DNA of 47,338 nt from Tenericutes bacterium ADurb.Bin239 (lineage in GTDB: Bacteria; Bacillota_I; Bacilli_A; RFN20; CAG-826), in assembly GCA_002069815.1 (NCBI GenBank), contig MWCB01000011.1, positions 1-47,338 on the forward strand, read 5' to 3'. Each line of letters begins with the position of its first letter. Within the stretch, counting starts at the first letter, position 1. Both the position numbers and the translations under genes were made by a program. Positions 27,041 through 47,338 of the stretch are shown here, in pieces. Under the pieces are notes generated by a model. That model ran no database searches and had not been told where the DNA came from. It saw only the letters and a program-made list of their open reading frames with translations.

Positions 27041-28069
27041 TTATTCATTAACAACTTCTAAACTAAATAATTTATTTTCATGTAATAAATTTGTTAATTC
27101 TTTTGTATTTATAAATTTAGAGTCAATTTGGTTAATGGTTTCGTTGATTATTGAAGATACAAGATAACCATCCACAAAGAATTCAAAATTATTAGTTATA
27201 TTTTTTCTAATACTTGAATCTAAATTTTGAAAATAAATAGTAGTGTTGAAAGTAGTATTAAGTTCCTCTATATTAATATTCAATGCATTTTTATACTTTG
27301 GACAATTAATAGAAAACATATCTTCACTATAATTAGGAGGGACATTAAAAAACTTATTAATATAACTAGGAGCAAATACTGGTAATGTATTATTTTGGTC
27401 CGCTAAAGTATAAATTAAATTATCAAAATCATAAGTATTAGTAAGTAACACCAAAGAGTCGTGACTTGCACCAAGTATTACATCTAACATAGCGTTATAT
27501 GCATTGTGCGTATCATCTAATTTGTATGATGTATAACTAATTTCACCTAATTTATCACTAAGTAATATTGTCATATCTTCATATATTTCTTCATCAGATA
27601 ATACAATACCCACATTAGTGTACGTCTCTCCTAAAACAATTAAATCTCCTAGTGATTCAGCTTCTAAAGATAAAGAAGGAATAATAGGAAAGAAAGCTTT
27701 ATCACTACTATATTCATAATTAACGACCTTATGAGCACTAGTGATAATAGGAATATCATTATTTGATGTAACACTATTATTAAGTTCATTATTAAAACTA
27801 CCAATAATCGCTTTTACATCTCTTCTTCTAAGTGTTTCTTTTATTTTAGATTCATCAATATTTTCATATTCAAACCTTAATTCTTCTTGTGTACTAATAA
27901 AATAATTAATACCATTAACATAAGCATCACCAAAAGCAGCGAAGGATCCCGCTGTTGGGAGAAAGCTCACCAGTGTGTTTTTATTATTTTGTTTACAACT
28001 ACAGCCACTTAAAAGAATAGTGAAAACACCTAATAAGCTAGACACCTTTAATCTATCGATTGATTTCAT
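27041..28069 (-). CDS. Lipoprotein with a type I periplasmic-binding-like fold
   Basis: 342 aa. Lipobox LLSGC (Cys about 23) after a short signal peptide. FAAFGDAYVNGINYF near residue 43 is typical of the first helix of LivJ-like type I binding proteins, followed by alternating beta/alpha segments with IIGSF, IPIITSAH, NVGIVLSDEEIYEDM and HDSLVLLTNTYDF at the expected places. The ligand is unknown. No permease or ATPase is adjacent; instead it lies 54 bases downstream of the HNH nuclease gene on the same strand, inside the AT-rich block. It may be a free-standing ligand sensor, or an unrelated passenger of the acquired segment. Confidence 0.65.
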   Translation of the reverse strand: MKSIDRLKVSSLLGVFTILLSGCSCKQNNKNTLVSFLPTAGSFAAFGDAYVNGINYFISTQEELRFEYENIDESKIKETLRRRDVKAIIGSFNNELNNSVTSNNDIPIITSAHKVVNYEYSSDKAFFPIIPSLSLEAESLGDLIVLGETYTNVGIVLSDEEIYEDMTILLSDKLGEISYTSYKLDDTHNAYNAMLDVILGASHDSLVLLTNTYDFDNLIYTLADQNNTLPVFAPSYINKFFNVPPNYSEDMFSINCPKYKNALNINIEELNTTFNTTIYFQNLDSSIRKNITNNFEFFVDGYLVSSIINETINQIDSKFINTKELTNLLHENKLFSLEVVNE

Positions 28070-28123: not shown

Positions 28124-29404
28124 TTATTTAAGATGTAAATATATATTTTCAATAATTTGACCGCGGTTGGTGCTATCAAAATAGTGCTCAGCAAAACTAA
28201 GAACATTTGGATTGTTAGATAAAATACGATCAATTAGCTCTTTTTGGTAGTCTTCGCAACCAACTCCTGCCTTCAACGCAGTATGGCAAGCAGGACACAA
28301 TTTTACAAGATTGTCTTCATGATCTAGCTCAGCAGTATTATTTAATGAAATATTGTGATGTATTTCAAAGTACGGTCTCTCAGTTCTTCTGTGGATAAAA
28401 GTTCTATCATCAAGATTATAAATAAATTTACAAGCTCCGCATTCATCATCAGTATAAATTCGCACTAATTCCACTATTGTTTTACTTCTTGTATATGTTG
28501 GAACCGCTAAGTGTAACAAATATTTATCATCATCAAATCCTAATTCTTTTCTTAATCTATTCACATCTTTTTCTTCTAAGTTTTTGCCAAAGATTTTATT
28601 ACTAAAATGATTTAATCTATTCAAAAATAATTCTGAACCTTCGGGAATAACGTCTGTCATATCGATATAATTAATAAATTCTTTTTTTTCTATTCCATTA
28701 TGAGAATATACGTTATCAACTATTTTAACCTTGTATTCATTAATCAGACCAATGTTTTTTACATACCAATTTAACTGTAATCTTAGTTGCGTATTCCTTC
28801 TATTAATCCCCTTCACATATTGGTCTTGTAGTTCACGAAAATTGATATTAATTAAATAATAGGGAACCATTAAATATTCGTTTAATAACCTAGATTTACC
28901 TAATTCAAATGTATTATCATAGAAATAGTCCATTGCTATTAGCGGTCTTGTCGTATCAATTGAACCTCTAAGTTCACAAAATCCTCTAATAAAATGTTTT
29001 TTACTTTCATTGAATTCTTCTTCTATGAACCATGGACAATTATTAAATAATTTAAAGTAAAGTCTATTAAAAAAACTGGATTTTGTAATATTCAAATCAT
29101 TTATAATCAAAAAGACAGCTTTTTCTTTGCCTGCAAAAGAAAAGCCGCAATGATTATATGTTCTCTTATACTCATCGTACGTTATCCAATTAGTATTTTC
29201 AGTAATATTGTTAAGAGCAGTTACATAATTTTCTGTGTATGATTCAAAATCAAATTCTTCTACTTTAACTTTAGAAGATTTTTGGTAGGCGGAAACAGCT
29301 GCAAAATAATCGCCTTTTTTAGAAACAATTATTCTGCTTATTAATGCACCATGGATTAGCGGATGTAATTCATTTTCTAATATTTCACTTACTCTTATCA
29401 TCAT
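28124..29404 (-). CDS. HNH restriction endonuclease of the R-M system
   Basis: 426 aa. The C-terminal nuclease domain (about 305-405) has the HNH/zinc layout: CGAC near residue 312, EIHHNISL near 342 with the catalytic His, and DNLVKLCPACHTALKAG near 360 completing the second Cys pair and the Asn/His of the motif. The first 300 residues are unassigned and probably recognise DNA; FIRGFCELRGSIDTTRPLI near 157 is a striking conserved-looking patch. Its start lies 20 bases inside the end of the fused methyltransferase gene, so the pair is translationally linked with methylation made first. The cleavage site cannot be predicted. Confidence 0.85.
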   Translation of the reverse strand: MMIRVSEILENELHPLIHGALISRIIVSKKGDYFAAVSAYQKSSKVKVEEFDFESYTENYVTALNNITENTNWITYDEYKRTYNHCGFSFAGKEKAVFLIINDLNITKSSFFNRLYFKLFNNCPWFIEEEFNESKKHFIRGFCELRGSIDTTRPLIAMDYFYDNTFELGKSRLLNEYLMVPYYLININFRELQDQYVKGINRRNTQLRLQLNWYVKNIGLINEYKVKIVDNVYSHNGIEKKEFINYIDMTDVIPEGSELFLNRLNHFSNKIFGKNLEEKDVNRLRKELGFDDDKYLLHLAVPTYTRSKTIVELVRIYTDDECGACKFIYNLDDRTFIHRRTERPYFEIHHNISLNNTAELDHEDNLVKLCPACHTALKAGVGCEDYQKELIDRILSNNPNVLSFAEHYFDSTNRGQIIENIYLHLK

Positions 29405-31184
29405 TTGATTCCCCCTTTGCTTTTTCTAGTCTCTTTAATGCTATTTTAAAATACCTATCATCATTTTCAATGCCAATAAATTTTCTGCCCAATTTTAGAG
29501 CAGCCACACCAGTAGAACCGCTACCCATAAATGGATCCAATATAAGTTCTTTTTTATTTGTATGTATTTCAACGATTTCTTTCATTAATTTAAGACTTTT
29601 TTGGGTTGGGTGTTCGGTTTTTTCGAAACCTGAAACTGTCGGAGTTTTAAATAATGAGCGCAAATACGGAGTATTTTTTGGTTTGTTAAAAACCCATTGG
29701 GCTCCTTTTTTAACTCCCCATATTGCGAACTCCATATCTTGAACATATCTTCTATTTATATTTCTTGGCATAGGATTGGCTTTTTGCCATATAAGAACGT
29801 CCTTAACATCGATGTTATTTTCCTTCAGTTCATCAATTATATAACTGATATACAAATATGAACAAAAGATAATAATGGAACCATTTTTATCTAATAAATC
29901 AATATAATCTCCAATCCATTTTAATAAATCGAATTTTTTATCCCATTCACCAAAATCAACACCCTTTCTCGGAGAATACATGGTTGAAAAATTATTTTCT
30001 TTTGAAATATTATAAGGTGGATCAGTAATTATATGGTTTACTTTAACGTTGTTATTTTTTAATTCTTTTACAAACACAAAAGAATCAGCTAGATATACAC
30101 TGCAATTTTCATCTTCAATTCTTTTATCCTTATAAACATCTTCGATTGCCTTTGCAATTGCCTTTGCCATTAGTGGCGGGACAGCGTTTCCAATTTGGCG
30201 ACAAATACTGGTTTTTGGTCCGAAGAATTGAAAATCGTCGTCGAAACTTTGAATTCTAGCAGCTTCTCTGGGAGTAATGGCTCTATGTAACACTGGATGA
30301 GAATTTCTTCCATTAGAAGGTGTATCAAATCTAGTGTCGATGGTCGGACTAACATCATCCCACTTTAATCGTGACCAAGTCGTTGCAAATTTTTGTTTTC
30401 CATGTAATTCAACAGGGATTGAAGATTTATCACCTTCATCAGGTACCATCATTAATTTTTCAATTGCTAATTTACTGTGATTTGTTGCTTTATGGTTATA
30501 TAGTTTTTTTCCGCGCATATTCTTTTGAAAGATAGATTGTGGCTCGTTTATATAATCAGAAACATTATTGCCCTCACCTGAATTTAAATACCATAAGTCC
30601 GAAATGGCATCTCTTACCGTAACAATATTCTTAGTATTTCCGCGTGGAAGAGGAATGCTCCTACTAAGTGATCCAATAATTATTGCTCTTTCTCTATTTT
30701 GCGGAACCCCAAAATCTTTTGCGTTAATTACCCCAGCATTTACAATATATCCAAGTTTTGAAAATTTATTTCTAATTTCATTTAAAAAATAACCATCACA
30801 CGCATTAATCAAATTTTTAACATTTTCGATTACAAACACTTCGGGTTTAATTGCCTTAACAATATCTATATACTCTAGGAATAAAAAGTTTCTCTGATCA
30901 TCAAAACCAAGCTGTTTCCCTTTCAGACTAAATCCCTGACATGGTGGACCACCGATAATCATGTTAACGCCAAGTCGTTTTGATTCAGAAATAATATGTT
31001 TCCTTACTTTCTCATCGGTTATGTCGCCAACAATACCATGAGCACCCTTAATATTATTATTGAATGTTTTAATCGTGTTCTGGTCAAAATCAAGACCTAA
31101 AACTGTTTGAAAATTTTTATTTTTATCCATTCCATATGAGAAACCGCCAGCTCCACAAAATAAATCTAAAACCTTGAATTTCAT
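29385..31184 (-). CDS. Fused C5-cytosine and N6-adenine/N4-cytosine DNA methyltransferase
   Basis: About 599 aa; the ATG at 31184 has AGGCGG nine bases upstream, better than a GTG at 31220. Residues 1 to about 345 are a full C5-cytosine methyltransferase: DLFCGAGGFSYGMD (I), GGPPCQGFSLKG (IV), ENVK (VI), QNRERAIIIGS (VIII), TPREAARIQSFDDDF (IX) and QIGNAVPPLMAKAIA (X). After a short linker, about 360-595 is a beta-class amino-methyltransferase with VNHIITDPPYNIS first and LDPFMGSGSTGVAALKLGRKFIGIE later. DPPY fits N6-adenine or N4-cytosine. The overlapping HNH gene completes the system. Two different activities on one chain suggest a non-palindromic site whose strands are protected by different marks. 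Confidence 0.92.
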   Translation of the reverse strand: MKFKVLDLFCGAGGFSYGMDKNKNFQTVLGLDFDQNTIKTFNNNIKGAHGIVGDITDEKVRKHIISESKRLGVNMIIGGPPCQGFSLKGKQLGFDDQRNFLFLEYIDIVKAIKPEVFVIENVKNLINACDGYFLNEIRNKFSKLGYIVNAGVINAKDFGVPQNRERAIIIGSLSRSIPLPRGNTKNIVTVRDAISDLWYLNSGEGNNVSDYINEPQSIFQKNMRGKKLYNHKATNHSKLAIEKLMMVPDEGDKSSIPVELHGKQKFATTWSRLKWDDVSPTIDTRFDTPSNGRNSHPVLHRAITPREAARIQSFDDDFQFFGPKTSICRQIGNAVPPLMAKAIAKAIEDVYKDKRIEDENCSVYLADSFVFVKELKNNNVKVNHIITDPPYNISKENNFSTMYSPRKGVDFGEWDKKFDLLKWIGDYIDLLDKNGSIIIFCSYLYISYIIDELKENNIDVKDVLIWQKANPMPRNINRRYVQDMEFAIWGVKKGAQWVFNKPKNTPYLRSLFKTPTVSGFEKTEHPTQKSLKLMKEIVEIHTNKKELILDPFMGSGSTGVAALKLGRKFIGIENDDRYFKIALKRLEKAKGESNDDKSK

Positions 31185-31333
31185 ATATTTTTTCCGCCTT
31201 TTTGAGGAATCAAATTTCACTCCCTCATATTATATCGTTTTATCATAAAAATGCATTAAATATTATCATTATATTTTCAAATATATAATATTTGGTTAAA
31301 TTTAAATTTTTTTATCTTTTACGAAAAAGAACA

Positions 31334-31834: not shown

Positions 31835-32346
31835 TTAAACTTCTATTTTTCCTTTATTAAATGATGATACAGCCCCATTGACTGGAGCGACTGCAATAGC
31901 GGATAATAGCAGTAAATCCTGGAGATTGTATACCCCGCGATTTGAAACATATTTTTTGTTTTGATTCCTAATCTAACAACATATTCTTCTTTGTGCGTTG
32001 AAGCGATTAATCCAGTGAAGTAAGTAATAATCTCGCTTTTCTTTAAACTGGGCTGAATTTCTTGTTGTACCTTAAAGATTGGATTCTCTCCATCTTCTGT
32101 AGTAGCATTATCTTCTTTACCAATTACTTCTTTTGAATGGCGGCCAGTAACAATAAATTCATCTTCTAAAGTTAATCACTACTTTTTGAGATATCATTTT
32201 TTATAACATCAACTTCCCCGTTGGATATCATCGCTGCATCATCAGTGCTTGGCTTCAAAGAGATTTACCTATTTTTTCAAAAAATCATTCGTATATTTTC
32301 TGCTGGTGAGTGCCACAGAAGGAAGCGCCGATATCCCGCCCTTCAT
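31835..32346 (-). pseudogene. Decayed gene of unknown family with several frameshifts
   Basis: AAGGAAAAGTCAGTT ahead of an ATG at 32346 gives a credible ancestral start (MKGGISALPSVALTSRKY...). The frame is then lost. Coding continues in other frames as KPSTDDAAMISNGEVDVIKN, then LEDEFIVTGRHSKEVIGKED, a long stretch including FKVQQEIQPSLKKSEIITYF and HKEEYVVRLGIKTKNMFQIA, and, after a one-base shift in a G-run near 31938, VYNLQDLLLLSAIAVAPVNG...FNKGKIEV to a stop at 31837. At least three frameshifts are needed to join these pieces. I do not recognise the parent protein. It ends just before the bidirectional terminator. Confidence 0.6.
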
Positions 32347-32455: not shown

Positions 32456-34003
32456 TCAAATAAAAGTAGAATTATAAATTGAAACAATGTGTTTCTCAAG
32501 TGGTGATGTTCTATATCCAGTAAAACCAATAACCAAGGTGTTTTTTGCTCTAGTAAATCCGACAAATAACTTTCTCTTTGTTTCAGCGTTGATTCCGTAT
32601 TCTTTTCTTTCAAATTTTAAAAAGACCTTGTTAGACTCAAGACCTTTTGATGAATGAATTGTCATTACTCTATTGACAACTTTATACTTAGTGTAGTGAT
32701 TTATAACTGTTTGATTGAACAATTGAGCACCTAACTCATTCAATATTTCCTTTGGTATTTGCACATCGCTTAACTTAAAAATTCTTTCTATATAATTAAT
32801 CGCCTTTTCTGCTGGCTTAATTGATAAACTATCGTAATTTAAAAACTTAGAATCAATAATAGAGTCTAAAAAAATAATCAACTCCTCAACAGAGTAAGCA
32901 TATTTTGGAACTTTATTTTTGTGGTTATAATAGAATTTAAGTATTTCCTCGATAATATATTGATAATTATCTGCAAATGCTTTGTTAGACTTCAATTCAA
33001 TTGCTTTTGAATATATGAGATTTTTGACACCTGCCGCCAAGCAACGCTTGTAAAACTCTTCTGCCTCTTTATTTGTTTCAACCAAAATAAAATATTCATC
33101 ATTGCTGATGAAATAATCTGGTTTAATTATGAATGTATCATCAATACTCACTTGCTTGTTATACGATATTACTTCTTTTGATGTGCTTTCACCCACTATC
33201 CTTCTAGCAAATTCCAATATGTTGTAGTGGCATCTGGCAGAATAAGTTAATTTATATTCCTTAAACCCTTTTCCTACCATTGAGTAAAATAAATCCGGCT
33301 GTGCCCCTCTGAATTGATAAATTGATTGTCTTTTATCACCAATTAGATAGCAATTGATGTTTGTGTTTTCAATTAACTTTTCAATAAATTTCAGTTGATA
33401 ATAATTAAGATCTTGCGCCTCGTCAACATAAATTGAATTATAAAGTGTTTCAAAATATTGCTTTACAACCGGAACTTTTTCTATGGCATCACATGCAAAC
33501 AAGTATGCAGCAAATGAGATTTCATAATTGTTATCAATCAAATTGTTTATCCATTTTTTATAATAGTTTTCAATTTCTGTAATCCTAAGATAATCCTTAG
33601 TTAATATATTTACGAGAGCGTTTTTATCCAAAGGAGGAATTGTTACGTTGAGTTTACCCTGAATATTTGGTGATTTTGGTAATAACTTACTTAAAATCCT
33701 GTTTTTGAATGGTATTACTATTTTATTAAGAATGAATGAATCAATAGTTCCCACATATGAAAATTCATTGTATACTTTGTTGCTCAATTTCTTTTCTAGT
33801 TCTCTAGATACTTCTCTAGTAAAAGAACATACAATGATTCCTTTGTTCAAAGATTTTTCTTCTATTGCACGTAACTCTTTTTCGGCTTTTTTAATTAATG
33901 TGTGTGTCTTCCCAGATCCTGGGCCAGCAGATACTAGTATCTTAGATTCTGTTGAATTAATAATAATCTCCTGTTCTTCAATTAACCTACGGTCGATCAT
34001 CAT
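32456..34003 (-). CDS. gajB: Gabija UvrD-like helicase GajB
   Basis: 515 aa, close to the usual size of about 500. Superfamily 1 helicase motifs are complete: Walker A SAGPGSGKTHTLIKKA near residue 23, motif II YVDEAQDLNYYQL near 192, motif III GDKRQSIYQFRGAQPD near 222, motif V TIHSSKGLESNKVFLKFE near 450, and motif VI RKLFVGFTRAKNTLVIGF near 482. Its ATG lies 17 bases inside the end of the gajA gene, the standard Gabija layout. In Gabija, GajA is a sequence-specific nicking nuclease controlled by nucleotide levels and GajB is activated by DNA ends. A stand-alone UvrD/Rep helicase is excluded by the overlap. Confidence 0.93.
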   Translation of the reverse strand: MMIDRRLIEEQEIIINSTESKILVSAGPGSGKTHTLIKKAEKELRAIEEKSLNKGIIVCSFTREVSRELEKKLSNKVYNEFSYVGTIDSFILNKIVIPFKNRILSKLLPKSPNIQGKLNVTIPPLDKNALVNILTKDYLRITEIENYYKKWINNLIDNNYEISFAAYLFACDAIEKVPVVKQYFETLYNSIYVDEAQDLNYYQLKFIEKLIENTNINCYLIGDKRQSIYQFRGAQPDLFYSMVGKGFKEYKLTYSARCHYNILEFARRIVGESTSKEVISYNKQVSIDDTFIIKPDYFISNDEYFILVETNKEAEEFYKRCLAAGVKNLIYSKAIELKSNKAFADNYQYIIEEILKFYYNHKNKVPKYAYSVEELIIFLDSIIDSKFLNYDSLSIKPAEKAINYIERIFKLSDVQIPKEILNELGAQLFNQTVINHYTKYKVVNRVMTIHSSKGLESNKVFLKFERKEYGINAETKRKLFVGFTRAKNTLVIGFTGYRTSPLEKHIVSIYNSTFI

Positions 34004-35711
34004 ATAAAAACTCCACTAGTATGTTTTTTTGATTTCTGTCATTTACTTTCAAAACAATATCGTTATCAATTAGATATTTATGCAAATTTTTCATTTTTCT
34101 TTGACTAAGTATTTCTATAACATCAGTTTTTTTATCTTCTTTTAAACCAACAAATTCAGCAAAAGCATTTTCAAAACCATTTTCTTGACCTTCATGTACA
34201 TAAATGTTGTACACCTTGAGAACATCTACTAAAGAAGGCACGTTTTTTTTAAAACTAATATGTTCTGGTGAGTTATTAATAACATTAAATGTATTCTCTT
34301 TGATATCGATACCCGCCAAGTCTCTTATTAACTCAATGGTATTTTCATCTAACAGCGAAAATGCTCTTTTTAACCCTGCATACACATATTCATCATCATC
34401 TTTTCCACTTTGGTAATAGTCATTATCAGTCAGAATATGAACTTTAATTCCAAGTGATTCTAAAATTTCTTTTGATGGTTTGAAATCAACACCATAGACA
34501 CAAATGAATCCAACACCCCTATTAAGAACAATTTTTCTAAATTCATCATCGCTGTTTATGAGAATGTTATAAAACATCTTCTCTGAATACCCTTCGATTA
34601 AAAGTACTTCATTGTAAAAAAAGGATTCTGCAATCTCTTCATTTATAGAATATCCAAATTTTTTATAAATTTCCTTCCCATCTACATTAACTCGGAAACA
34701 ATTAAATTTTCTTTCTTTAGTTTTTTCATCTATTTCATAATTAAATTTAAAAATTTCTTCAGTTTTTCGGAAATCAATTATACTAGGCGAGTGAGTGGTT
34801 ACAATAGTTTGACCTGAAAAAAAGTCATCCAATATGGATGCATATTGCTTTTGTAGTAATGGGAAAAGATGATTTTCAGGCTCTTCAAGAATAATAATTT
34901 TTTCTTTATGTTTTTCTTTTATGAGTTTTTGCAATAATAATGCTAAAGTTTTACTTTTTCCATCGCCAATATTAATTTTTTTATCATTTAAAACGCATGG
35001 AACTATGTCTAATGATTTATAAATATTAGATAATTCAAAATCGCTTTTAATCAAGAAATCAATGTCACCAAAAAACTCTTTCATCGAACCAATATTATTC
35101 AATTCATCTTGCATATTTTTTATCGCCGAATCATTAGAAATACTTTCATTGAGTTTTATAATACTGTCGGATATATCTTGACCTATTGCCAAATTCGCTT
35201 TTTCATTTAATAACTTATGATAAGAAAAATAATTTTTAGTATCTCTGCTTAAATCGTAATTAGGATAAACATAAATAATATCTACGACCTTATCCAAACA
35301 ATTTCCAATAGCTGCAGATTTAGGCTCCGTTTTATCTAATGATCCAAAAATAATATATTCATCATACGCCTGTATATCATGATTAAAAGTAGCATTAAAT
35401 TCTATCGTTAAAGTTTCTGTGCCATCGTCATTTACATCAACATATTCTTTTAATATTGCCCTATTATTACTGGATATTGCACTTAAATCTAATACCATTT
35501 TTATCAAAATGTCCATTTTGTTTAAATTCGTAGAATCAGACTCTACTAATGGCTGTCTTCTGGTTTTATAATCCAAAACCTTTCTAATGGCATAGCAAAA
35601 GTTAGATTTTCCAGAATCATTTTTTCCTATAATGAGAAACCTTTTCTTTAGGTTGACTATTTGTATATTCAACCCTCTAAAATTATTAATTTCTATTTCT
35701 TTGATATACAT
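33987..35711 (-). CDS. gajA: Gabija OLD-family nuclease GajA
   Basis: 574 aa, the usual GajA length. N-terminal ATPase: MYIKEIEINNFRGLN and IIGKNDSGKSNFCYAIRKVLD (Walker A near residue 34), signature-like NIGDGKSKTLALLLQKLI near 248, Walker B EKIIILEEPENHLFP near 274, then VTTHSPSIIDF near 305. The C-terminal TOPRIM domain follows: EVLLIEGYSEKMFY near 366 with the catalytic Glu and VHILTDNDYYQ near 425 with the Asp pair. GGGGAG precedes the ATG. Together with GajB this is a complete two-gene Gabija anti-phage system, here in an AT-rich island with a restriction-modification system. Confidence 0.95.
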   Translation of the reverse strand: MYIKEIEINNFRGLNIQIVNLKKRFLIIGKNDSGKSNFCYAIRKVLDYKTRRQPLVESDSTNLNKMDILIKMVLDLSAISSNNRAILKEYVDVNDDGTETLTIEFNATFNHDIQAYDEYIIFGSLDKTEPKSAAIGNCLDKVVDIIYVYPNYDLSRDTKNYFSYHKLLNEKANLAIGQDISDSIIKLNESISNDSAIKNMQDELNNIGSMKEFFGDIDFLIKSDFELSNIYKSLDIVPCVLNDKKINIGDGKSKTLALLLQKLIKEKHKEKIIILEEPENHLFPLLQKQYASILDDFFSGQTIVTTHSPSIIDFRKTEEIFKFNYEIDEKTKERKFNCFRVNVDGKEIYKKFGYSINEEIAESFFYNEVLLIEGYSEKMFYNILINSDDEFRKIVLNRGVGFICVYGVDFKPSKEILESLGIKVHILTDNDYYQSGKDDDEYVYAGLKRAFSLLDENTIELIRDLAGIDIKENTFNVINNSPEHISFKKNVPSLVDVLKVYNIYVHEGQENGFENAFAEFVGLKEDKKTDVIEILSQRKMKNLHKYLIDNDIVLKVNDRNQKNILVEFLYDDRP

Positions 35712-36860: not shown

Positions 36861-37850
36861 TTATTTATTTATGAATTTCATTATATCTTTGATTGGCTTA
36901 GCCCCATCGATTGATGAAGGGGAAAAAAGATTAAAAGCAGCGCTAGCGTGCGCTATTTTTAAAATCATTTCTGCTTCTAAATTATTGGATAATGCATATA
37001 AGGCTCCCGCAACAAAAGCATCACCCGCTCCCACCGTGGAAATAACTTTGTTTTTAGGGATGTTGAAGCTATTAACTACGACAAAAGCGCCCTCTTTTTG
37101 CTTCATAACCGCGCATTCTGGGTAATGAATAATAACAGTATCTTTAACTCCTAAACTAAATAAAACATCAATTGATTTTTTAATGTTTGAAAGAATAATA
37201 TTATCATCTTTATCACGAGCGGGAATACCAGTAATACTAGCCGCCTCTATTTCATTAATAATGACATAGTTACAATATTTAAGTGACGGCACGACCACTT
37301 TTTTATAACGGTCACTAGTGTCACTTACAACATCAATTGATGTCTTAATTCCTTTACTTTGCACTTTATGTAATAAGCGAGCCATCTTGGTACCATACTC
37401 CGCATCTTCTACATCTAACTTTGCTAAAAGAAGTAAATAACCAATATGGAAAATATCACAATCTAAAGTATCAAGATTAAAGTCTTCTACTTTTAAGTTA
37501 TCATTAGCCCCACCATATTGATAAAAGGTGCGATAGCCTCCCTTTTCAATCATTACATCGGTGTAAGATGTCTTCTTCTCCTTATCAATAATGACATTAG
37601 TGGTGTCAATAGCGTACTTCCGATATGTATCAAGAATAAACTTCCCTTTTTCATCATGCCCCACTCGACCAAAGACTTTGATATCAATCGTGGGATCAAT
37701 TACTTTTAAATTTATAGCAGTGTTACAAGCACTCCCTCCCACACTCATTTCTTCATCAAATATTTTGGAAAGCATTCCTCTTTTCGGGAGGACTTCAATC
37801 CGCTTAATCGCATCCACAATCATATTCCCGGCAAAATATATTTTATTCAT
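36861..37850 (-). CDS. PfkB family carbohydrate kinase
   Basis: About 329 aa from the ATG at 37850, preceded by AAAGGAC. The start overlaps the end of the truncated FGGY kinase gene. Ribokinase fold motifs are present: the GNMIVDAIKRIEVLPKRGM and SVGGSACNTAINL N-terminal region and the catalytic-base/anion-hole motif STVGAGDAFVAGALYAL near residue 265. It phosphorylates a sugar, probably a ketose such as fructose given the D-lyxose/mannose isomerase and alpha-mannosidase nearby. A ribose or deoxyribose role is not supported by any neighbour. Confidence 0.85.
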   Translation of the reverse strand: MNKIYFAGNMIVDAIKRIEVLPKRGMLSKIFDEEMSVGGSACNTAINLKVIDPTIDIKVFGRVGHDEKGKFILDTYRKYAIDTTNVIIDKEKKTSYTDVMIEKGGYRTFYQYGGANDNLKVEDFNLDTLDCDIFHIGYLLLLAKLDVEDAEYGTKMARLLHKVQSKGIKTSIDVVSDTSDRYKKVVVPSLKYCNYVIINEIEAASITGIPARDKDDNIILSNIKKSIDVLFSLGVKDTVIIHYPECAVMKQKEGAFVVVNSFNIPKNKVISTVGAGDAFVAGALYALSNNLEAEMILKIAHASAAFNLFSPSSIDGAKPIKDIMKFINK

Positions 37851-38349
37851 AATCAATGTCCTTTAACTTTTTATAAATATGTTTATTGGCAAGATATAGT
37901 TCTTTGTATATATTGTAGTACTTCAAATACTTTTCATGATTATTAATGTTTGGTCGTTCTTTTGAACTATAACTTGTCATATGTTTGACAGCTTCTTCAA
38001 CCCTAGTGTAATAGCCCGCAGCCACACTAGCGAAAAGGGCGCCACCAAGCGCTCCTGCTGCACTTGTGTTCGTTTTTACGGTCGGGGTGTTAAAAAGGTC
38101 AGTAAGTGGCTCTACCAGCGTTTTAGAATGGCTTCCGCTGCCCGCTAAGAGAATTTCTTGTAATTTAGTGTTACTTTCCTGTGCGTATTCAAACAAATGA
38201 TATAAAGAACAAGCAATTCCTGCCATCACCGAACGGGCAATAACTTTTCTATCCGTATTTGTTTTAATACCAATGAATGTTCCCTTAGTGTCAAAGAGCA
38301 CTGCTTTAACCCCAGAAGTCCCTAAGTCTAATCCTACTAAATATTTCAT
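37843..38349 (-). pseudogene. Internally deleted FGGY carbohydrate kinase (xylulokinase-like)
   Basis: 168-171 aa against about 500 for the family. The N-terminus YLVGLDLGTSGVKAVLFDTKG is the phosphate-1 motif of FGGY kinases, and after only about 35 residues the sequence jumps to the C-terminal nucleotide-binding region (GIACSLYHLFEYAQESN, ILLAGSGSHSKTL, AAGALGGALFASVAAGYY). The middle, which includes the catalytic Asp and most of the sugar site, is missing without loss of frame. It cannot be an active kinase. It still shares an overlapping stop/start with the PfkB gene and an intact operator, so it may be a recent deletion, a leftover leader cistron, or an assembly artefact. Neither ATG (38349 or 38358) has a clear ribosome site. 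Confidence 0.75.
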
Positions 38350-38357
38350 ATTTAACA

Positions 38358-38408
38358 TGACAACGTTGTCAATTTTATTTTACTATATTATAATTAAATT
38401 AACAATAA
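38358..38408. promoter_or_regulatory. LacI-type operator and divergent promoters
   Basis: TGACAACGTTGTCA (38358-38371) is a perfect 14-base palindrome with a central CG, the classic LacI/GalR operator form. On plus its TTGTCA (38366-38371) is the -35 box of a near-ideal promoter with TATAAT at 38389-38394 (17-base spacer), driving the lacI gene at 38431. On minus, TTGTTA-N17-TAAAAT just upstream of the operator can drive the kinase genes. Repressor bound here would block both directions. Confidence 0.8.
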
Positions 38409-38430
38409 TATATGTCGAGGAAAATACACT

Positions 38431-39402
38431 ATGGTCACACTAATTGATGTTGCAAAAAAGGCAGGAGTTTCCCCTTCTACGGTTTCGCGTTACATACGAA
38501 CACCGCACGTTGTTTCAAAAGAAAAAGCCGAAATTATCCAAAAGACAATTAATGAATTAGGCTACTCGCCTAACTTAGGAGCCTCCCTTCTTAAAAGTAA
38601 TACCGCTAACTTAGTGGGCCTAGTCATTCCTAACACTTATAACTACTTATTCATGACAATTATTAATCAGCTTACCAATCGACTTAAAGCCGAAAATAAA
38701 AACCTGATTGTTTTATATTCCACCGACTTTGCCGAAGTTAAAAAATGTATTAAAACACTTATCTCGCTCCAATGTAAATCAATCATCTATATTCCTGAAA
38801 AAGCAAGTAAAACAATTGATACTTACACGAAGAATAATGGAATCTACTCTTTACAACTCTTTATTGATGCGATGGAGCAAGATGATGCCATTATTATCGA
38901 TGACATCCAAGGTGCATATATTGCGACCAAAAACTTAATTAAAGCTGGTCATAAAGACATTGTGCTCGTCGATGGAGATAATGAAGTCTTTCGTAAAAGA
39001 AAAGAAGGGATGAAAAAAGCTTTCCTTGATTCGGGGATTATTTTTGATGAAGACCGCCATCTTTGTCCTTTAACTGAAAATATTGATGTGGTGCGCCGCG
39101 TCCGTAAACATCTTTATAATCATGAAACAACAGCGCTTATTGCCGTTACCGAAGGTATTGCGCAACAAGTTTGTCTTGCCTTACAACAAATTGGTAAGTC
39201 TATTCCCGATGATATTTCCCTTGTCGTCTACGATGACTCCCAGTGGGCCCAATTATCTAATTACTCGGCAATTGGGCATCCCATTAATGAGTTAATTGAT
39301 AATATTACTAACCTTTTACACTTACGTAATGATGATGAAAAAATAAATAAAATTGTTATTCCCCCAATCTTTATTAAACGGGGATCAATTAAGGAGATTT
39401 AA
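38431..39402 (+). CDS. LacI/GalR family transcriptional regulator of the mannosidase operon
   Basis: 323 aa. Helix-turn-helix TLIDVAKKAGVSPSTVSRYI (residues 3-22) with the standard recognition helix, then a hinge and a binding-protein-like effector domain (LVGLVIPNTYNYLFMTI; HKDIVLVDGDNEVFRKRKEG; DISLVVYDDSQWAQL). GAGGAA precedes the ATG, and GH38 follows by two bases. The perfect operator overlapping its own -35 box points to autorepression and joint control of the divergent kinase genes. Confidence 0.95.
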   Translation: MVTLIDVAKKAGVSPSTVSRYIRTPHVVSKEKAEIIQKTINELGYSPNLGASLLKSNTANLVGLVIPNTYNYLFMTIINQLTNRLKAENKNLIVLYSTDFAEVKKCIKTLISLQCKSIIYIPEKASKTIDTYTKNNGIYSLQLFIDAMEQDDAIIIDDIQGAYIATKNLIKAGHKDIVLVDGDNEVFRKRKEGMKKAFLDSGIIFDEDRHLCPLTENIDVVRRVRKHLYNHETTALIAVTEGIAQQVCLALQQIGKSIPDDISLVVYDDSQWAQLSNYSAIGHPINELIDNITNLLHLRNDDEKINKIVIPPIFIKRGSIKEI

Positions 39403-39404
39403 TT

Positions 39405-42005
39405 ATGCTAATTAATCGTTATGAAGAAATCAAAAAGTGTTCGCGAAATGCCTATGCCTTACGTCTCTACGGTCAGCTTGATTACTTATTACAACTTAAT
39501 AACGTAAATAAAGGAAAGTTTGACCCTCTTTTATTAAGAGCGCTTAAAGAAATCATTAATTTTTACAATAAAGAAAAAACATTTACGAACGCTTTTGTTA
39601 AAAAAATAGAAAATTCACTAATGAGTCTTCAAAGTGAAGCGCAAAAGTATACCGTTATTTGTATTGGTCACGCCCATATTGATGTGAACTGGCAATGGGG
39701 CATTGATGAAACTGTTAATATTACTGCTTCTACTTTTGAAACAATGTTATATCTCATGGATAACTATCAAGACTTCACCTTTATGCAATCGCAAGGTTAT
39801 CTTTATGTTTTAATGGCGAAATATCGTCCCGACTTAATTAAACGTATTAAAAAGTATGTTAAAGAAGGACGGTGGGAAGTAACCGCTTCTACTTACGTAG
39901 AAAATGATAACAATATGATTGATATGCTTTCTAGTAATCTCCAATTTAAATACTCCAAACGGCAAGTCGCTGAAATTTTCGATATAAGTGACTCCGCTCT
40001 TGATCTTGATTTTGAGCCTGATACTTTTGGTCATCATCGCTATCGCCCCGAAATCTTAGTAAACAATGACATCAAATACGTTTATCATTGCCGCGGTTCT
40101 TTTACAACCTCTATTTATCAATTTGTGGCCCCCAGCGGCAAAGAAGTTCTTGTCTTCCGCGAACCAAATTGGTATTTAGGCTTTATTGAACATGATTCAT
40201 TTACTTACGTGCCTGCTTTCTGCAGTGAAAATGGCACAAACTTTGCGCTAAAAGTATATGGTGTCGGTGACCACGGCGGTGGCTGTACGGTCCGCGACTT
40301 AAATCGTTTGTACGATATGCAAAAATGGCCGCTTATGCCCCATATTAAATTTGGAACCCTGCATGACTTTTTTAAAGAAATTGAAAAAGTTCCTAATATT
40401 AAAAAAATTGACTATGAACAAAACTGTGTCTTTACTGGTTGTTATTCATCAGTCTATGAAATTAAAAAGCAAAACGCAATGGTTGAGTCTAACCTTAAAA
40501 AAGCTATGCTTTGGTGTGCATTAGATGATAAACACAAATATTCATTTGATGAAGCCTTCCATGCCTATTTACCAACGCACTTCCATGACACAATTACTGG
40601 AAGTAATGTTAAAAGCGCGATTGATTTTGCCCTTGGTGAATATCAAATCGCTCTCTCCAATATTGGCGCTAATAAGGCGCTTGCCCTTAAAACTTTAAGT
40701 CAAAAGATTGATTCAACCAAAATATATTCCGCTGCGGCAGTGGAATTTGATAATATCGCGATTGGGGCAGCAGGCGGTTATTTAAACAAAAAGAATAACT
40801 TTGCGCTTTCACTGGGATATGGTAAAGAACGAGCCTTTGCCATCTTTAACCCTTCAAACTTTACTCGTGACGAAGTAATTGATCTTGATGTCTGGGATTA
40901 TTATGGTGACGTTACTAAGTTAGTGGCGTGTGACGCTAACGGGAAAGAACTTCCCTTCTCACTGCGCCAAGTGCACCCCTTCTTCTATTGGTATCATAAT
41001 TGTCATACCGTATCCGTTAAAGTAAAAGTGCCAGCTTTAGGGTACACAACCGTGTTACTTAAAGAAAAAGATAAACTTACCGCGCTAACCCCTGATCCTA
41101 ATCCGCGTATTTCTTTACCAAAGGATGATATTGTGCTAGATAACGGTATCGTTAAAGCAATCTTTGATAAAACTTCTCTTAACTTAAACTCCCTATTACT
41201 AAACGGTCAAGAACTAGCGACTAACGGCCGCTTTGAACTTGTAGTTGAAGACGCTAGTGAAAGTATGACTGCGTGGCGTATTGGCCGCTTTAAAAAGATA
41301 ACACCACTATCAAACTTCAGTGTTATTCCTGGTTCTTACTTTAAAAATGATGTGCGCCAAGGTTTTAGTTATCGCACTACTTTTAATAATAGTGAAATCT
41401 TTGTTCATGTTTCCCTCGACAAAGATGATGCTTCCCTTAAATTTAATGTCGGGTTACGGTTTTATGAAATTGGTAGTCTAGAATTCGGGGTACCGATGCT
41501 CCGTTACGTCGTGGAAAACAGTGAAAAACCAGCGGAAGCAATTTATAACGTAGCCGGCGGTTTCACTAAACGCCCCGCTAAAAATCAAAACCAAGTTGCA
41601 CTAAGTCTTGTTAGCGTTGGTAAGCTTGGCATCTTTGGTAAAGGACTCCACGGTTACCGTTATGACAAAGATTCACTTAGTGTTACCCTCATTCGTAACT
41701 CGCTTGACCCCGCAGTTAATCCCGAACTTGGTGATCACGAGTTTGATTTTAGACTTTTGCTCACTAGTAACCTAGTAAAAGCTCACGAAGTTTATACGAA
41801 CGAATTAGACCATATCTTACTTACTTATCAAAAAGGACCTCATCCACTTGAACATACTTTTATTAGTGTTGATGAAAAGTTACAACTTCACTATCTAACA
41901 GACGATGAAGTCGTTGTCACTAATCACGGTCCTGCCGAAGAGTTTATGGTCCTTAATAAAAAAGTTCACCTTAAAAAAGATGAGACTAAGATTATAAAAA
42001 GATAA
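39405..42005 (+). CDS. GH38 alpha-mannosidase
   Basis: 866 aa, no signal peptide, so cytoplasmic. The retaining GH38 catalytic site is visible: GHAHIDVNWQW near residue 87 (zinc His and Asp), FEPDTFGHH near 200 (nucleophile Asp), the VGDHGGG turn near 286, and LPTHFHDTITGSN near 390 (zinc His). The C-terminal half is the beta-rich region usual in the family, with FVVEDASESMTAWRIGRF-type segments. It removes alpha-linked mannose from imported oligosaccharides. AAGGAGATTTAATT precedes the ATG and the gene is coupled to the lacI gene, forming a regulator-enzyme operon. Confidence 0.94.
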   Translation: MLINRYEEIKKCSRNAYALRLYGQLDYLLQLNNVNKGKFDPLLLRALKEIINFYNKEKTFTNAFVKKIENSLMSLQSEAQKYTVICIGHAHIDVNWQWGIDETVNITASTFETMLYLMDNYQDFTFMQSQGYLYVLMAKYRPDLIKRIKKYVKEGRWEVTASTYVENDNNMIDMLSSNLQFKYSKRQVAEIFDISDSALDLDFEPDTFGHHRYRPEILVNNDIKYVYHCRGSFTTSIYQFVAPSGKEVLVFREPNWYLGFIEHDSFTYVPAFCSENGTNFALKVYGVGDHGGGCTVRDLNRLYDMQKWPLMPHIKFGTLHDFFKEIEKVPNIKKIDYEQNCVFTGCYSSVYEIKKQNAMVESNLKKAMLWCALDDKHKYSFDEAFHAYLPTHFHDTITGSNVKSAIDFALGEYQIALSNIGANKALALKTLSQKIDSTKIYSAAAVEFDNIAIGAAGGYLNKKNNFALSLGYGKERAFAIFNPSNFTRDEVIDLDVWDYYGDVTKLVACDANGKELPFSLRQVHPFFYWYHNCHTVSVKVKVPALGYTTVLLKEKDKLTALTPDPNPRISLPKDDIVLDNGIVKAIFDKTSLNLNSLLLNGQELATNGRFELVVEDASESMTAWRIGRFKKITPLSNFSVIPGSYFKNDVRQGFSYRTTFNNSEIFVHVSLDKDDASLKFNVGLRFYEIGSLEFGVPMLRYVVENSEKPAEAIYNVAGGFTKRPAKNQNQVALSLVSVGKLGIFGKGLHGYRYDKDSLSVTLIRNSLDPAVNPELGDHEFDFRLLLTSNLVKAHEVYTNELDHILLTYQKGPHPLEHTFISVDEKLQLHYLTDDEVVVTNHGPAEEFMVLNKKVHLKKDETKIIKR

Positions 42006-42019
42006 GTTTAACTTATTTT
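42002..42019. terminator. Weak hairpin between convergent genes
   Basis: ATAAGTT-T-AACTTAT (42002-42016) followed by TTT lies in the seven-base gap and gene ends of the convergent GH38 and isomerase genes. Low GC makes it a weak bidirectional terminator at best. Confidence 0.35.
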
Positions 42020-42699
42020 AATTTAGGATATTCACTACATAATAAGCGATACGGTTTTTCATCTTCTTCAATTTTTGGAAATCTTCCAGTTGGGGGATTA
42101 AACCGATTATCATTTTTATCATCGTTACATTCGCTTACTTCGCCAATTAGAACCATTCCCGTCCCTTTTTGCGGCGTAAACGAGTGATATAATCTTTGGT
42201 AAATATGTATTGATTCACCTGGTTTTAAAATAACACTAGCGCCAGCGTTTACAAAGTAAGTACGCCCATCGCTAATGATTTTTACTTTGCTTTCATAATC
42301 AATTTCTTCGTTTGGTAACGAATTATAAACTTTAATCGCTAAGTTACCACCCCCACGATTAATAATATCTTCGCTTTTGTGCCAATGGAAATGATTAATG
42401 CACGCTTGTCCTTCCATTAAACACATTATTTTTTCAGCGTATACTTTGGGATACTTATCGGCCATTAAGCGATTACCGTTACGAATGGTAATAAGTGATA
42501 ACCCGTAACGCTTAAAATCACCAAGCCCAAAATCAGTAATATCCCACCCTAAACTACAGTCCACAACTTCTTGATATTCTTTGGTCTTATTTTGCCAGTC
42601 TTCAGGTTTAAAATGACAAAAAGGGGGCAAAGCAAACGAATACTTAGCGCACAATCGTTCTAATCTTTTAATAGCTTTATTTATTTCACTTCTTTTCAT
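42013..42699 (-). CDS. D-lyxose/D-mannose ketol-isomerase (cupin)
   Basis: About 228 aa from the ATG at 42699. A cupin-fold sugar isomerase of the D-lyxose isomerase family (YdaE type): HFHWHKSEDIINRGGGNLAIKVYN near residue 117 supplies the metal His residues and Glu, and LKPGESIHIYQRLYHSF near 165 carries the second cupin motif His. Family enzymes interconvert D-lyxose and D-xylulose and act well on D-mannose and D-fructose. Next to the intracellular GH38 and a PfkB kinase, conversion of mannose to fructose is the likely role. No good ribosome site is visible; a stable hairpin lies just upstream. Confidence 0.88.
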   Translation of the reverse strand: MKRSEINKAIKRLERLCAKYSFALPPFCHFKPEDWQNKTKEYQEVVDCSLGWDITDFGLGDFKRYGLSLITIRNGNRLMADKYPKVYAEKIMCLMEGQACINHFHWHKSEDIINRGGGNLAIKVYNSLPNEEIDYESKVKIISDGRTYFVNAGASVILKPGESIHIYQRLYHSFTPQKGTGMVLIGEVSECNDDKNDNRFNPPTGRFPKIEEDEKPYRLLCSEYPKLK

Positions 42700-42711
42700 A
42701 TGCACGATTAA

Positions 42712-42743
42712 GGTAGTGACCCGAAATAAATCGAGTCACTACC
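42712..42743 (-). terminator. Stable hairpin between the Big2 gene and the isomerase gene
   Basis: GGTAGTGAC (42712-42720) pairs perfectly with GTCACTACC (42735-42743), with an inner CGA/TCG after one mismatch. On minus it follows the Big2 lipoprotein stop at 42762 by 18 bases and ends 13 bases before the isomerase ATG. The U-tract is poor (TTAAT), so it may be a partial terminator or a hairpin that controls isomerase translation. Confidence 0.55.
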
Positions 42744-42761
42744 CTTGGTTTTAATTAATAA

Positions 42762-44981
42762 TTACCAGCAATAGCCAAAACGACGGACATAACATCTCGT
42801 TTGCGCATTGCCTTCATTAGCGATTGAGTAAGTTTCAATCGATAAGAATCCAACTTTACCCTTAACTGCATCTGGGGTGGCAAAGGTGAAGAAATTTGCT
42901 TCCGCGAGTAATTTAAAGGTCACGATGCTATGGGCATCGCTACTCATTTCATACTCAGTCGCATCACAGAAACCATCCCACGTTAAGGGGTAACAGGTAA
43001 ACGATGAGAAATCTTCATTTGGTAAATAGAACACAATCCGAATCTTGGCGGTGTCAAGCATATCAGGGGTCGCGGATGGTGTCTTAGCCCATATTCTAAA
43101 TGCGGCCCCGTTAGTCGGTACTTCAATTTTAGCAAACATCGCTGTTTGCGCCGCTTCCGTTCTTGTTCCAGCAATACCGCTGATGAAGCCTAAGCAGCTC
43201 GTGTTATCTTCAAAGACAACATTACTACCAGGAGCACGATAAAGGTGCAGTTTACTGGTCGTATAGTCATCGTGAGGGGGGAATACAACGTTATCTTGGA
43301 CCGTTCGCCCGGACCAAGTGAAGTCCCAGTCGGCCGGCACATTCGTGTTAGCCGCGGCAATTGTTGGCATCGCCGCTGCTTGTTCTTTAGTCATACCAAG
43401 GAGACTTTCAGTAGTAACATGGACCGTGACAAATTTGTATAAGCCACCACATGAGACTTTAACGCGGGCAGTACCAGCGTCAACCCCCATTACAACCCCG
43501 CCCGCATCAACCGCGGCAATACCGGCAAAACTACTTTCAAAAGTAAAGCCTTCTTCACAACCAACTAGATCAGTTGGAGTAATAGTTACTATATCGCCTT
43601 TTACAACATTAATACTTTCGGGTACGTTAAATGACGTTTCGGGAATTGGTAAGACGGTCACATCAACGGTGAGACTAACTCCTGGAGCCCGATCATTAGT
43701 AATCGTAATGGTACAGGTCTTGGTTTCGGTTACTTCTTTCGCCGTAATTAACCCTTCCGCGGATACACTCGCCACTTCAATGTTACTGCTAACGAATGTA
43801 TTCGTGCCATTAACCGCATCTCCTACTGGATTAATGACGATTTGGCTCGTTTCGTTTGAATAAAGTTCAACGCTAGCTTCACTCCCTAAGAAGATGTTTG
43901 GTTTATCATCACAAATAAAGCCCATTCGTTTAATACCAAAGCAGTCATATTTGCCAGGAACTTTGCCATCAGCCATTAATTGGACCGAGACAATAAGATT
44001 ATTTTTACCGCGAAGGTCATATTTTCCTTCAACCGCAACCGAATAGATGAACATATTAAATTCGGGCGCACCCGAAATTTGGCCATAGGCTGTATCACTA
44101 ATTTCTTCAAAGGAAATCCAGCCATCAGCGTCTTGCGTTAATGAACCAGCATCAATGATTTGCAGTGGATATTCATTAAATTCGGTATAGTCAGCATTTT
44201 TTGCTTCATAGGCCATTAATCTAAATTTACCCGCGCCTGATAATGGAAATTCTTCGGCATCATTAACGTTGGACCAACCCCAGAGCCGATATGAATTCGC
44301 CCATGGTGAGACGTCCATCTTATGATAAGTTACGGCACTGATTTCAGCATCACCCTCTTTAATACCGCGCATAACAACGACATAGTCTCCATTGAAAATA
44401 GCGGCATTTTTAGTAGTCGCCCCGCGACCAACAACGGCGGTATCAGGGCGGGTGCCTTCAAAGTCAAATTTCGCAGCGGTTGATTCGCCATGCGACATAT
44501 CATCAATAATATGCCAACCATAGTCAATTAAAGGTGCACCCGAATAATTGATTGCGGTCGCATCACTATCCATCGCCGCGATATTTTTAAGTTTCTTAAA
44601 CGGCATTAAGCCTTCTAGTTTGTTGGGATCAACAACCGTTAAGGGGATGTCTTTGCGTACCGAACCACCTTTAACGAGAATACTTGTTTCACCTTCGCAT
44701 AGAGCGGTGACTAATCCGGTATTAGAAACAGTCGCAATATTCGTATCATACGACGTATACTCAAAGCTACTAATGCCAACGACGTTAGTAGGGGTAATTT
44801 GATACGTTTCTTCAACGTTCATCGTAATCGACGCTTCTACATCAAAGCCGGGCACTACTTCTTGGGTTGTTGAGGGTGGGGTACTAGTTCCTGCGGGGGC
44901 ACTAGATTCTCCGCCGCGACAACCGGCGAGTAATGCAAACACTGCCGTTATGAGAAGTGCTTTCAAAGTTTTGTTTTTCAT
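42762..44981 (-). CDS. Surface lipoprotein with several Big2 domains
   Basis: 739 aa. Lipobox LLAGC (Cys about 21) followed by a Gly/Ser/Thr/Pro linker. Big2-type Ig domains are recognised at about 48-120 (TYQITPTNVVGISSFEYTS, IATVSNTGLVTAL), about 370-445 (EVASVSAEGLITAK) and about 450-525 (DIVTITPTDLVG, VAAVDAGGVVMGV). Between and after them lie two related beta-rich domains (about 130-360 and 540-739) that share a DSAW/FRLWAW-like aromatic pattern and are probably carbohydrate-binding modules. AAGGAGAGG precedes the ATG. It follows the GH32-like gene by 12 bases, so it is in its operon. Confidence 0.78.
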   Translation of the reverse strand: MKNKTLKALLITAVFALLAGCRGGESSAPAGTSTPPSTTQEVVPGFDVEASITMNVEETYQITPTNVVGISSFEYTSYDTNIATVSNTGLVTALCEGETSILVKGGSVRKDIPLTVVDPNKLEGLMPFKKLKNIAAMDSDATAINYSGAPLIDYGWHIIDDMSHGESTAAKFDFEGTRPDTAVVGRGATTKNAAIFNGDYVVVMRGIKEGDAEISAVTYHKMDVSPWANSYRLWGWSNVNDAEEFPLSGAGKFRLMAYEAKNADYTEFNEYPLQIIDAGSLTQDADGWISFEEISDTAYGQISGAPEFNMFIYSVAVEGKYDLRGKNNLIVSVQLMADGKVPGKYDCFGIKRMGFICDDKPNIFLGSEASVELYSNETSQIVINPVGDAVNGTNTFVSSNIEVASVSAEGLITAKEVTETKTCTITITNDRAPGVSLTVDVTVLPIPETSFNVPESINVVKGDIVTITPTDLVGCEEGFTFESSFAGIAAVDAGGVVMGVDAGTARVKVSCGGLYKFVTVHVTTESLLGMTKEQAAAMPTIAAANTNVPADWDFTWSGRTVQDNVVFPPHDDYTTSKLHLYRAPGSNVVFEDNTSCLGFISGIAGTRTEAAQTAMFAKIEVPTNGAAFRIWAKTPSATPDMLDTAKIRIVFYLPNEDFSSFTCYPLTWDGFCDATEYEMSSDAHSIVTFKLLAEANFFTFATPDAVKGKVGFLSIETYSIANEGNAQTRCYVRRFGYCW

Positions 44982-44993
44982 AAATCCTCTCCT

Positions 44994-46412: not shown

Positions 46413-46413
46413 A

Positions 46414-47338
46414 TTAACTCCCTTCACTAATATCTTTTAATTCATAGAACGGATCTTCTGTAATGGTGACTCCTTCCACATCAAAGCGCATTTGCCGGAA
46501 TTGGAGGTGAACCCCTTTACAACAGTGTTCTTCGTTTTTATCAAAGATGTCATAAACTTGGTCTTGCTGAATAATCCACGTTAAATTCTTGCCTTTATAA
46601 GTATTCATATCAAAGTTAATGAATTTATCGAAAGTTTGATCAAATTCAATCCACCCATTCGTCATATCATGAATCGTATAATCTTCTTCAATCATAACGA
46701 TTCTAACTAACGAGGTATCATTAGGGTGAAGGTGACTACGGAACACAAATTGCACTAAACTTGCTTCTTCGGGAACTCTAACTTTGTTATAGACCATTGT
46801 ATTCATCCGGTCATCATCTGGTTCATTATTATCATCCCAATAATCTTGACCGACAATCCATTTCGCCCAGCCACCATCAAGGGCGTGACTATACCACGTA
46901 TCTTCGGAATAACCTGCTTTCCATTCCGCAAACGCGACTTTATTAAATTCCATATCGTGATTCACAATCGTAGACACGGGCAATTCATCCATCGTCGTTT
47001 TGGTGAAACCACGAATTAAGTAATCGGTTGGTTCATCGGTAATCGTGACGGTTGTATCACCGTAGATATCATCCGACATTTCACTTGTAGCGCGCACCGT
47101 TGCCACGCCAACTTTCTTAGGCAAGAGTTTGCCGCTTACAGGATCAATATCACAAATATCAGGATTAAGGGAGGAAAAGGTTGATCGTAAGTATGAAGTT
47201 TGTTCTGGTTCATACTTCGGTGTCATTCTAAATGTTGGATCATTAAGCGAGACGGTCACATCGGTTTTAGTAAATGTGACTGATTCAACATCATAAGGCG
47301 TAATTTCGGCCGTAAAACTTGCCTTAACGGCGGGATCA
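46414..47338 (-). CDS. Big2-type surface protein, C-terminal part (partial at the window end)
   Basis: The frame is open to the last base, so the true start lies outside; the visible 308 residues begin DPAVKASFTAEITPYDVESV. A Big2-like segment comes first (TSYLRSTFSSLNPDICDIDP, KKVGVATVRATS), then a beta-rich domain with TWYSHALDGGWAKWIVGQDYW and WIQQDQVYDIFDK that resembles the extra domains of the Big2 lipoprotein downstream. The stop abuts the GH32-like start by one base. It is probably another surface glycan-binding lipoprotein of the same operon. Confidence 0.7.
   Translation of the reverse strand, partial: DPAVKASFTAEITPYDVESVTFTKTDVTVSLNDPTFRMTPKYEPEQTSYLRSTFSSLNPDICDIDPVSGKLLPKKVGVATVRATSEMSDDIYGDTTVTITDEPTDYLIRGFTKTTMDELPVSTIVNHDMEFNKVAFAEWKAGYSEDTWYSHALDGGWAKWIVGQDYWDDNNEPDDDRMNTMVYNKVRVPEEASLVQFVFRSHLHPNDTSLVRIVMIEEDYTIHDMTNGWIEFDQTFDKFINFDMNTYKGKNLTWIIQQDQVYDIFDKNEEHCCKGVHLQFRQMRFDVEGVTITEDPFYELKDISEGS

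Follow-up and report, generated by a model that had tools for sequence, protein, structure and literature searches.

A putative GAGG/CCTC restriction-modification system pairing a fused two-domain methyltransferase with an HNH nuclease of predicted LAGLIDADG-like N-terminal fold in a Tenericutes bacterium

Locus and gene organization

The window analyzed here is a 47,338-nucleotide stretch of DNA from Tenericutes bacterium ADurb.Bin239 (contig MWCB01000011.1, assembly GCA_002069815.1), in which two overlapping minus-strand genes encode a fused DNA methyltransferase of the M1~M2 type (29385..31184, 599 aa) and an HNH restriction endonuclease (28124..29404, 426 aa). The methyltransferase occupies a single uninterrupted frame that runs from its stop at 29385 up to a GTG at 31220 (611 aa on the minus strand); alignment with homologs places the start at the ATG at 31184, the coordinate given in the original prediction and the one favoured by relatives, yielding the 599-aa product. 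The overlap between the methyltransferase end and the nuclease start, also anticipated in the original prediction, amounts to 20 bp (29385..29404, minus strand), and a Shine-Dalgarno-like GGGGG is found at 29411-29415, just upstream of the nuclease ATG.

A Gabija-like pair lies just upstream on the same strand (32456-35711), comprising a GajB UvrD-like helicase (32456-34003) and a GajA ATPase-TOPRIM protein (33987-35711), so the restriction system sits in a small defence island. Between this pair and the restriction genes is a decayed coding remnant (31840-32345, minus strand) interrupted by stops in each of the three minus-strand frames, while a lipoprotein-like open reading frame of 342 aa with no Pfam match (27041-28069, minus strand) follows immediately downstream of the nuclease. 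Farther away, a sugar-use cluster (36861-47259) includes a PfkB kinase, a LacI regulator, a GH38 alpha-mannosidase, a D-lyxose isomerase, a Big_2 protein, and a GH32 enzyme; beside the PfkB kinase is a truncated FGGY carbohydrate kinase (37843-38358, minus strand; 171 aa), consisting of the C-terminal part and a short N-terminal piece.

Domain architecture of the fused methyltransferase

The methyltransferase carries a C5-cytosine methyltransferase domain (30126..31184, minus strand; residues 1-353) followed by a beta-class amino-methyltransferase domain (29415..30104, minus strand; residues 361-590). Pfam assigns the former to PF00145 (E 2e-76) and the latter to PF01555 (E 9e-41), at residues 15-360 and 394-595 of the 611-aa frame, respectively; in the same numbering, residues 13-599 align with positions 1-585 of the 587-position PADLOC model PDLC03279 (782 bits). 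All characteristic motifs are kept in an alignment of 16 fused relatives. These include GGPPCQGF (with the catalytic C82), ENV (E120), QNRER (R164/R166), and QIGNAVPP in the C5 half, as well as the invariant catalytic tetrapeptide DPPY (D388-Y391; 30012..30023, minus strand), HPTQKS, and DPFMGSGSTG (from residue 550) in the beta-class half. Both active sites are thus intact by motif, which bears out the earlier description of two complete methyltransferases of different classes on one chain. The rarity that it implied for such a fusion does not hold: joined methylases are already covered by the REBASE naming 'M1~M2' (PMC4081073), and fused enzymes have been described as M.HpyAV (PMC2816704) and Mycoplasma hominis DCM3 (PMC10305163).

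Structural comparison of an AlphaFold2 model (VIA-align) gives the same division. Residues 1-353 match the folds of DNMT1, HhaI, and HaeIII (Z 24-28), and for residues 360-588 the closest solved structure is M1.HpyAVI of Helicobacter pylori (5hfj; Z 29.7, rmsd 1.5 A). In sequence, the amino domain resembles M1.HpyAVI over its whole length (E 4e-90), including PMPRNI(N/H)RRYVQD and WVFNKPKN; the aspartate of DPPY (D388) aligns with D29 of M1.HpyAVI, and a serine occupies the position of HpyAVI P41.

The nuclease and its predicted LAGLIDADG-like domain

The C-terminal part of the nuclease carries an HNH domain of the beta-beta-alpha-Me type (28283..28441, minus strand; residues 322-374), assigned to PF01844. 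The PADLOC model PDLC03514 (REase_II) covers most of the protein length (residues 82-418, 151 bits, E 1e-44). Among 26 homologs, the residues C322xxC325, H349H350, N365, and C370xxC373H374 are invariant and include the features expected of this nuclease class, namely the general base H350, N365, H374, and the two CxxC pairs C322/C325 and C370/C373. In the predicted model, residues 301-405 align with the HNH domain of EcoKMcrA (6ghc) with a Z of 9.6 (VIA-align).

The N-terminal part (28640..29377, minus strand; residues 10-255) is predicted to adopt a degenerate two-repeat LAGLIDADG fold. A segment of the nuclease alignment, FIRGFxELRGSID, resembles the LAGLIDADG motif, and the predicted model contains two alpha-beta-beta-alpha-beta-beta-alpha repeats between residues 15 and 218. 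For the N-terminus, Foldseek ranks LAGLIDADG homing endonucleases (E about 0.02) and an intein endonuclease highest among PDB entries, and a viral structure library yields a phage endonuclease at 5e-5 together with many homing-endonuclease or intein-type proteins. Residues 10-255 align with I-Tsp061I, PI-SceI, I-DmoI, and WhiA at Z values of 6-8 (VIA-align), a range that the tool calls middling. At the profile level, a DmoI-type profile compared with the profile of the 26 nuclease homologs scored 29.9 with the motifs in register, a value reached by none of 250 column shuffles (mean 12.6, sd 2.2). Unrelated profiles scored 12-15, and LAGLIDADG families compared with one another mostly 31-49, with one small intein set at 18-22. 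Viral contigs identified by motif supplied the LAGLIDADG comparison profiles. Taken alone, the sequence signal is weak, with an hhalign probability of 15% for one of the four profiles tried; neither the LAG1 nor the intein profile scored significantly against the nuclease profile, and no sequence signal was seen between nuclease repeats 1 and 2. Pfam searches with LAGLIDADG_3 and LAGLIDADG_2 returned no homing endonucleases in 392 genomes of the phylum at the cut-offs used.

Both LAGLIDADG-helix positions have a glycine and, five residues on, an arginine that fills the catalytic slot in 19/26 and 26/26 homologs, respectively. Residue 24 is Arg in 19 homologs, Leu in four, and otherwise Asn, Ala, or Ile, never an acid, and residue 146 is Arg in all 26. 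In the DmoI register Arg146 falls on the second motif's catalytic acid, and by motif reading Arg24 falls on that of the first, so neither helix ends in the Asp or Glu typical of active LAGLIDADG enzymes. Because arginine stands at both catalytic-acid positions, the N-terminal domain should, according to the model, bind but not cut DNA. The genomic context likewise departs from the intron or intein setting of such enzymes, since the nuclease gene belongs to a two-gene restriction-modification operon here and in relatives. The invariant residues R146, S148, D150, N188, R190, Q193, R203, Q206, and R208 cluster in the second repeat, where they could plausibly form a DNA-reading surface.

We consider it probable that GAGG/CCTC Type IIS nucleases read DNA through a LAGLIDADG domain that is catalytically dead, both of its acids having become arginine, and cut through a grafted HNH domain; this view of the recognition domain draws on fold and conservation. 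The competing view, in which a mixed alpha/beta domain of different true fold or ancestry resembles LAGLIDADG proteins by chance, is rather unlikely and yet has some points in its favour. Z values of 6-8 can arise from common arrangements, Pfam LAGLIDADG models matched 0 of 19 nuclease homologs, and a WhiA profile match was dropped as evidence since it did not exceed its reversed-profile control (21.1 vs 23.5). What weighs against coincidence is that every one of the best PDB matches to the N-terminus is a LAGLIDADG protein, in agreement with the viral library, that the order of secondary-structure elements is right in both repeats, that the Gly-to-Arg spacing recurs at both helix positions with an acid never present, and that the DmoI-type match is in register. 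A search of openly available literature found no published link between a LAGLIDADG domain and an MnlI-like restriction nuclease.

Distribution and co-inheritance

A genome scan identified 26 relative loci in Mollicutes, Clostridia, Spirochaetes, Pasteurellaceae, Alphaproteobacteria, and other groups, most of them with a single fused frame; the closest relative, from Acholeplasma granularum (81%), has the same tandem gene order. An assembly or frameshift artefact is ruled out, as the fused architecture recurs at many independent loci in unrelated genomes, and the presence of an adjacent, intact nuclease likewise rules out an orphan methylase. In nine relatives of the tree set, each domain has a gene of its own, the two lying side by side in unchanged order, and ten more distant relatives show the reverse domain order. 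The tree places fused and split forms among one another, a pattern suggestive of repeated fission or fusion at one and the same junction. Of the three changes of the fused label, only one is forced by the branches starred on the tree, so that a single origin of the fused form may also account for the pattern.

The C5, N6, and nuclease modules are inherited together, as indicated by strong correlations of pairwise distances (C5 vs N6, r 0.84; nuclease vs C5, 0.79; nuclease vs N6, 0.76); for the C5-N6 and nuclease-C5 pairs, 0 of 2000 permutations reached values as high. In the 392-genome set, with the window's own copy excluded, an open frame with C5 and N6 domains lies beside nine of ten strong full-length nuclease homologs (L117-L126), while none was seen in the neighbourhood stretch examined for the remaining one (L119). 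Across a set of 58 genomes the system was matched in four, including the window's own (3/57 others, two of these partial), and in 0 of 3 genomes of the same genus. This patchy distribution indicates that the system probably spread horizontally.

Related methylases also occur on mobile elements. A mycoplasma prophage from a goose (MW353169.1, 3492-5294) encodes a fused methylase, and no recognisable nuclease of this family was found in the stretch examined; its methylase possibly serves as self-protection against GAGG/CCTC restriction. The Lactiplantibacillus plantarum plasmid p9 (NZ_CP060181.1, 2180-4282) encodes a 700-aa methylase with the same C5 domain in its C-terminal half and a different N-terminal part.

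Predicted sequence specificity

The recognition sequence, the modified bases, and the restriction of incoming DNA are read across from characterized relatives. In Staphylococcus haemolyticus, the PDLC03279/PDLC03514 pair has been described as a Type II system in which the A of GAGG and a C of CCTC on the other strand are methylated; its methyltransferase is active in Escherichia coli, where plasmids are shielded from MnlI, and its cytosine mark was named m4C (PMC13417997). Mycoplasma agalactiae J7894_00205 produces both Gm6AGG and m5C in CCTC, a double mark that the authors ascribed to base-switching by one methylase (PMC9465063). DCM3 of M. hominis (592 aa) has a C5 (1-360) plus beta-class (361-592) layout and tracks with m5C in CCTC, m6A in GAGG having gone undetected; it was treated as an orphan, with an HNH gene nearby (PMC10305163). 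The cleavage position of MnlI is CCTC 7/6 (PMC4081073).

The amino domain is predicted to target GAGG, given its closeness to M1.HpyAVI and its serine at the P41 position; the P41S variant of HpyAVI keeps GAGG activity and has much lowered GGAG activity (PMC5173035). By analogy with the relatives, CCTC would be the target of the C5 domain. Published sources disagree as to whether the mark is m5C or m4C and which C of CCTC carries it, and the C5-type active site of the present enzyme argues for m5C rather than m4C. In the 47-kb window the CCTC/GAGG count is 0.75 times that expected, ranking 15th from the bottom among the 256 tetramers, a depletion too slight to serve as evidence. Judged by these relatives, the system very probably belongs to the GAGG/CCTC (MnlI-like) specificity group, whose design is already known. 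The predicted Type IIS arrangement, with an asymmetric site and one methyltransferase per strand acting on different bases, is supported by the marks measured for the S. haemolyticus and M. agalactiae family members.

Several other affiliations were considered and set aside. The methyltransferase is too short for the HpyAV/Hin4II family with its CCTTC site (599 aa vs about 810-862 aa), its one uninterrupted open reading frame differs from HphI-like systems, in which the C5 and N6A enzymes have their own genes, and LlaJI-like systems are ruled out by their opposite gene order and separate clade.

Proposed mechanism and alternative explanations

The present analysis establishes the domain make-up, the intact motifs, the joint inheritance of three modules, and the predicted folds. 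It is highly probable that the two genes constitute a Type IIS restriction-modification system in which Gm6AGG on one strand and m5C in CCTC on the other protect the host while the HNH nuclease cuts unmodified sites. The fused methyltransferase would protect both strands of the asymmetric GAGG/CCTC site, with the beta-class domain methylating GAGG to give N6-methyladenine and the C5 domain methylating CCTC to give 5-methylcytosine. The nuclease would bind unmodified GAGG/CCTC, most likely through the N-terminal LAGLIDADG-fold domain that lacks catalytic acids, and its C-terminal HNH domain would cut beside the site. A fixed 1:1 dose of the two activities, which would give the balanced protection of the original prediction, is a plausible benefit of the fusion; fusion is not required, as the nine relatives with separate adjacent genes demonstrate.

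A related but different site, such as CCTTC/GAAGG as for HpyAV or an extended motif such as TCCTCY, appears improbable. M.HpyAV is likewise a fused C5 and N6A enzyme paired with an HNH nuclease (PMC2816704), and a Carnobacterium relative was first reported as recognizing GAGG plus TCCTCY (PMC9465063), both of which lend this alternative some credit. HpyAV-type methyltransferases, however, measure 810-862 aa (PMC2816704), the closest counterpart of the amino domain is M1.HpyAVI, a GAGG enzyme, and the assigned PADLOC family is the one measured as GAGG/CCTC. An equally low likelihood is attached to the idea that the genes act mainly as an epigenetic regulator or a selfish addiction module rather than in phage defence. 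Restriction-modification systems can act as selfish elements (PMC4081073), in keeping with the patchy distribution, but the adjoining Gabija pair and the intact nuclease active site speak for defence; the two kinds of role are compatible and not exclusive. Least probable of all is a real fusion in which only one domain, for instance the C5 half, works and one strand is marked, as the M. hominis DCM3 strains might suggest, since neither active site is damaged and each is conserved in 16 relatives, M. agalactiae and S. haemolyticus were both shown to carry the two marks, and a hemi-protected Type IIS site would leave one daughter duplex exposed after replication.

Implications

The fused methyltransferase represents a further case of a known design, and the nuclease is the fresher part of the system. 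The two-domain anatomy nevertheless clarifies earlier observations, as it explains how a single 'm5C' enzyme can also make m6A (PMC9465063) and how the PDLC03279 enzyme marks adenine and cytosine on opposite strands (PMC13417997); these double marks are attributable to two joined domains, not to base switching. If the disarmed LAGLIDADG recognition domain is confirmed, it would imply that parts have passed between restriction and homing endonucleases, and that a fold known for long sites has been adapted to about 4 bp, a natural instance of the meganuclease fold reading a 4-bp site. The nuclease would then be a restriction enzyme assembled from parts of two superfamilies, both of which include homing endonucleases.

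Comparison with known systems

The S. haemolyticus system shares both PADLOC families with the present locus, its methyltransferase model spanning both domains end to end, and in its case the two strands receive different marks, one on A and the other on C; it differs in host and sequence, and also in its cytosine mark, which its paper gives as m4C although the present domain is of the C5 type. M. agalactiae J7894_00205 and M. hominis DCM3 similarly devote one protein to GAGG/CCTC, and DCM3 has the same order of a C5 domain followed by a beta-class domain. HpyAVI (M1/M2) of H. pylori is also a C5 plus N6A pair for CCTC/GAGG, but there two overlapping genes encode the methyltransferases separately, and no functional nuclease accompanies them. 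MnlI is comparable in being a Type IIS nuclease with an HNH domain. The HpyAV and Hin4II systems (CCTTC 6/5) resemble it in the combination of fused C5 and N6A methylases (M.HpyAV) with an HNH nuclease, and differ in the larger methyltransferase (810-862 aa vs 599 aa) and the 5-bp site. Finally, homing endonucleases of the I-DmoI type share the predicted two-repeat fold of nuclease residues 10-255, whereas here arginine replaces both catalytic acids, a C-terminal HNH domain would do the cutting, and the gene resides in a restriction operon instead of an intron or intein.
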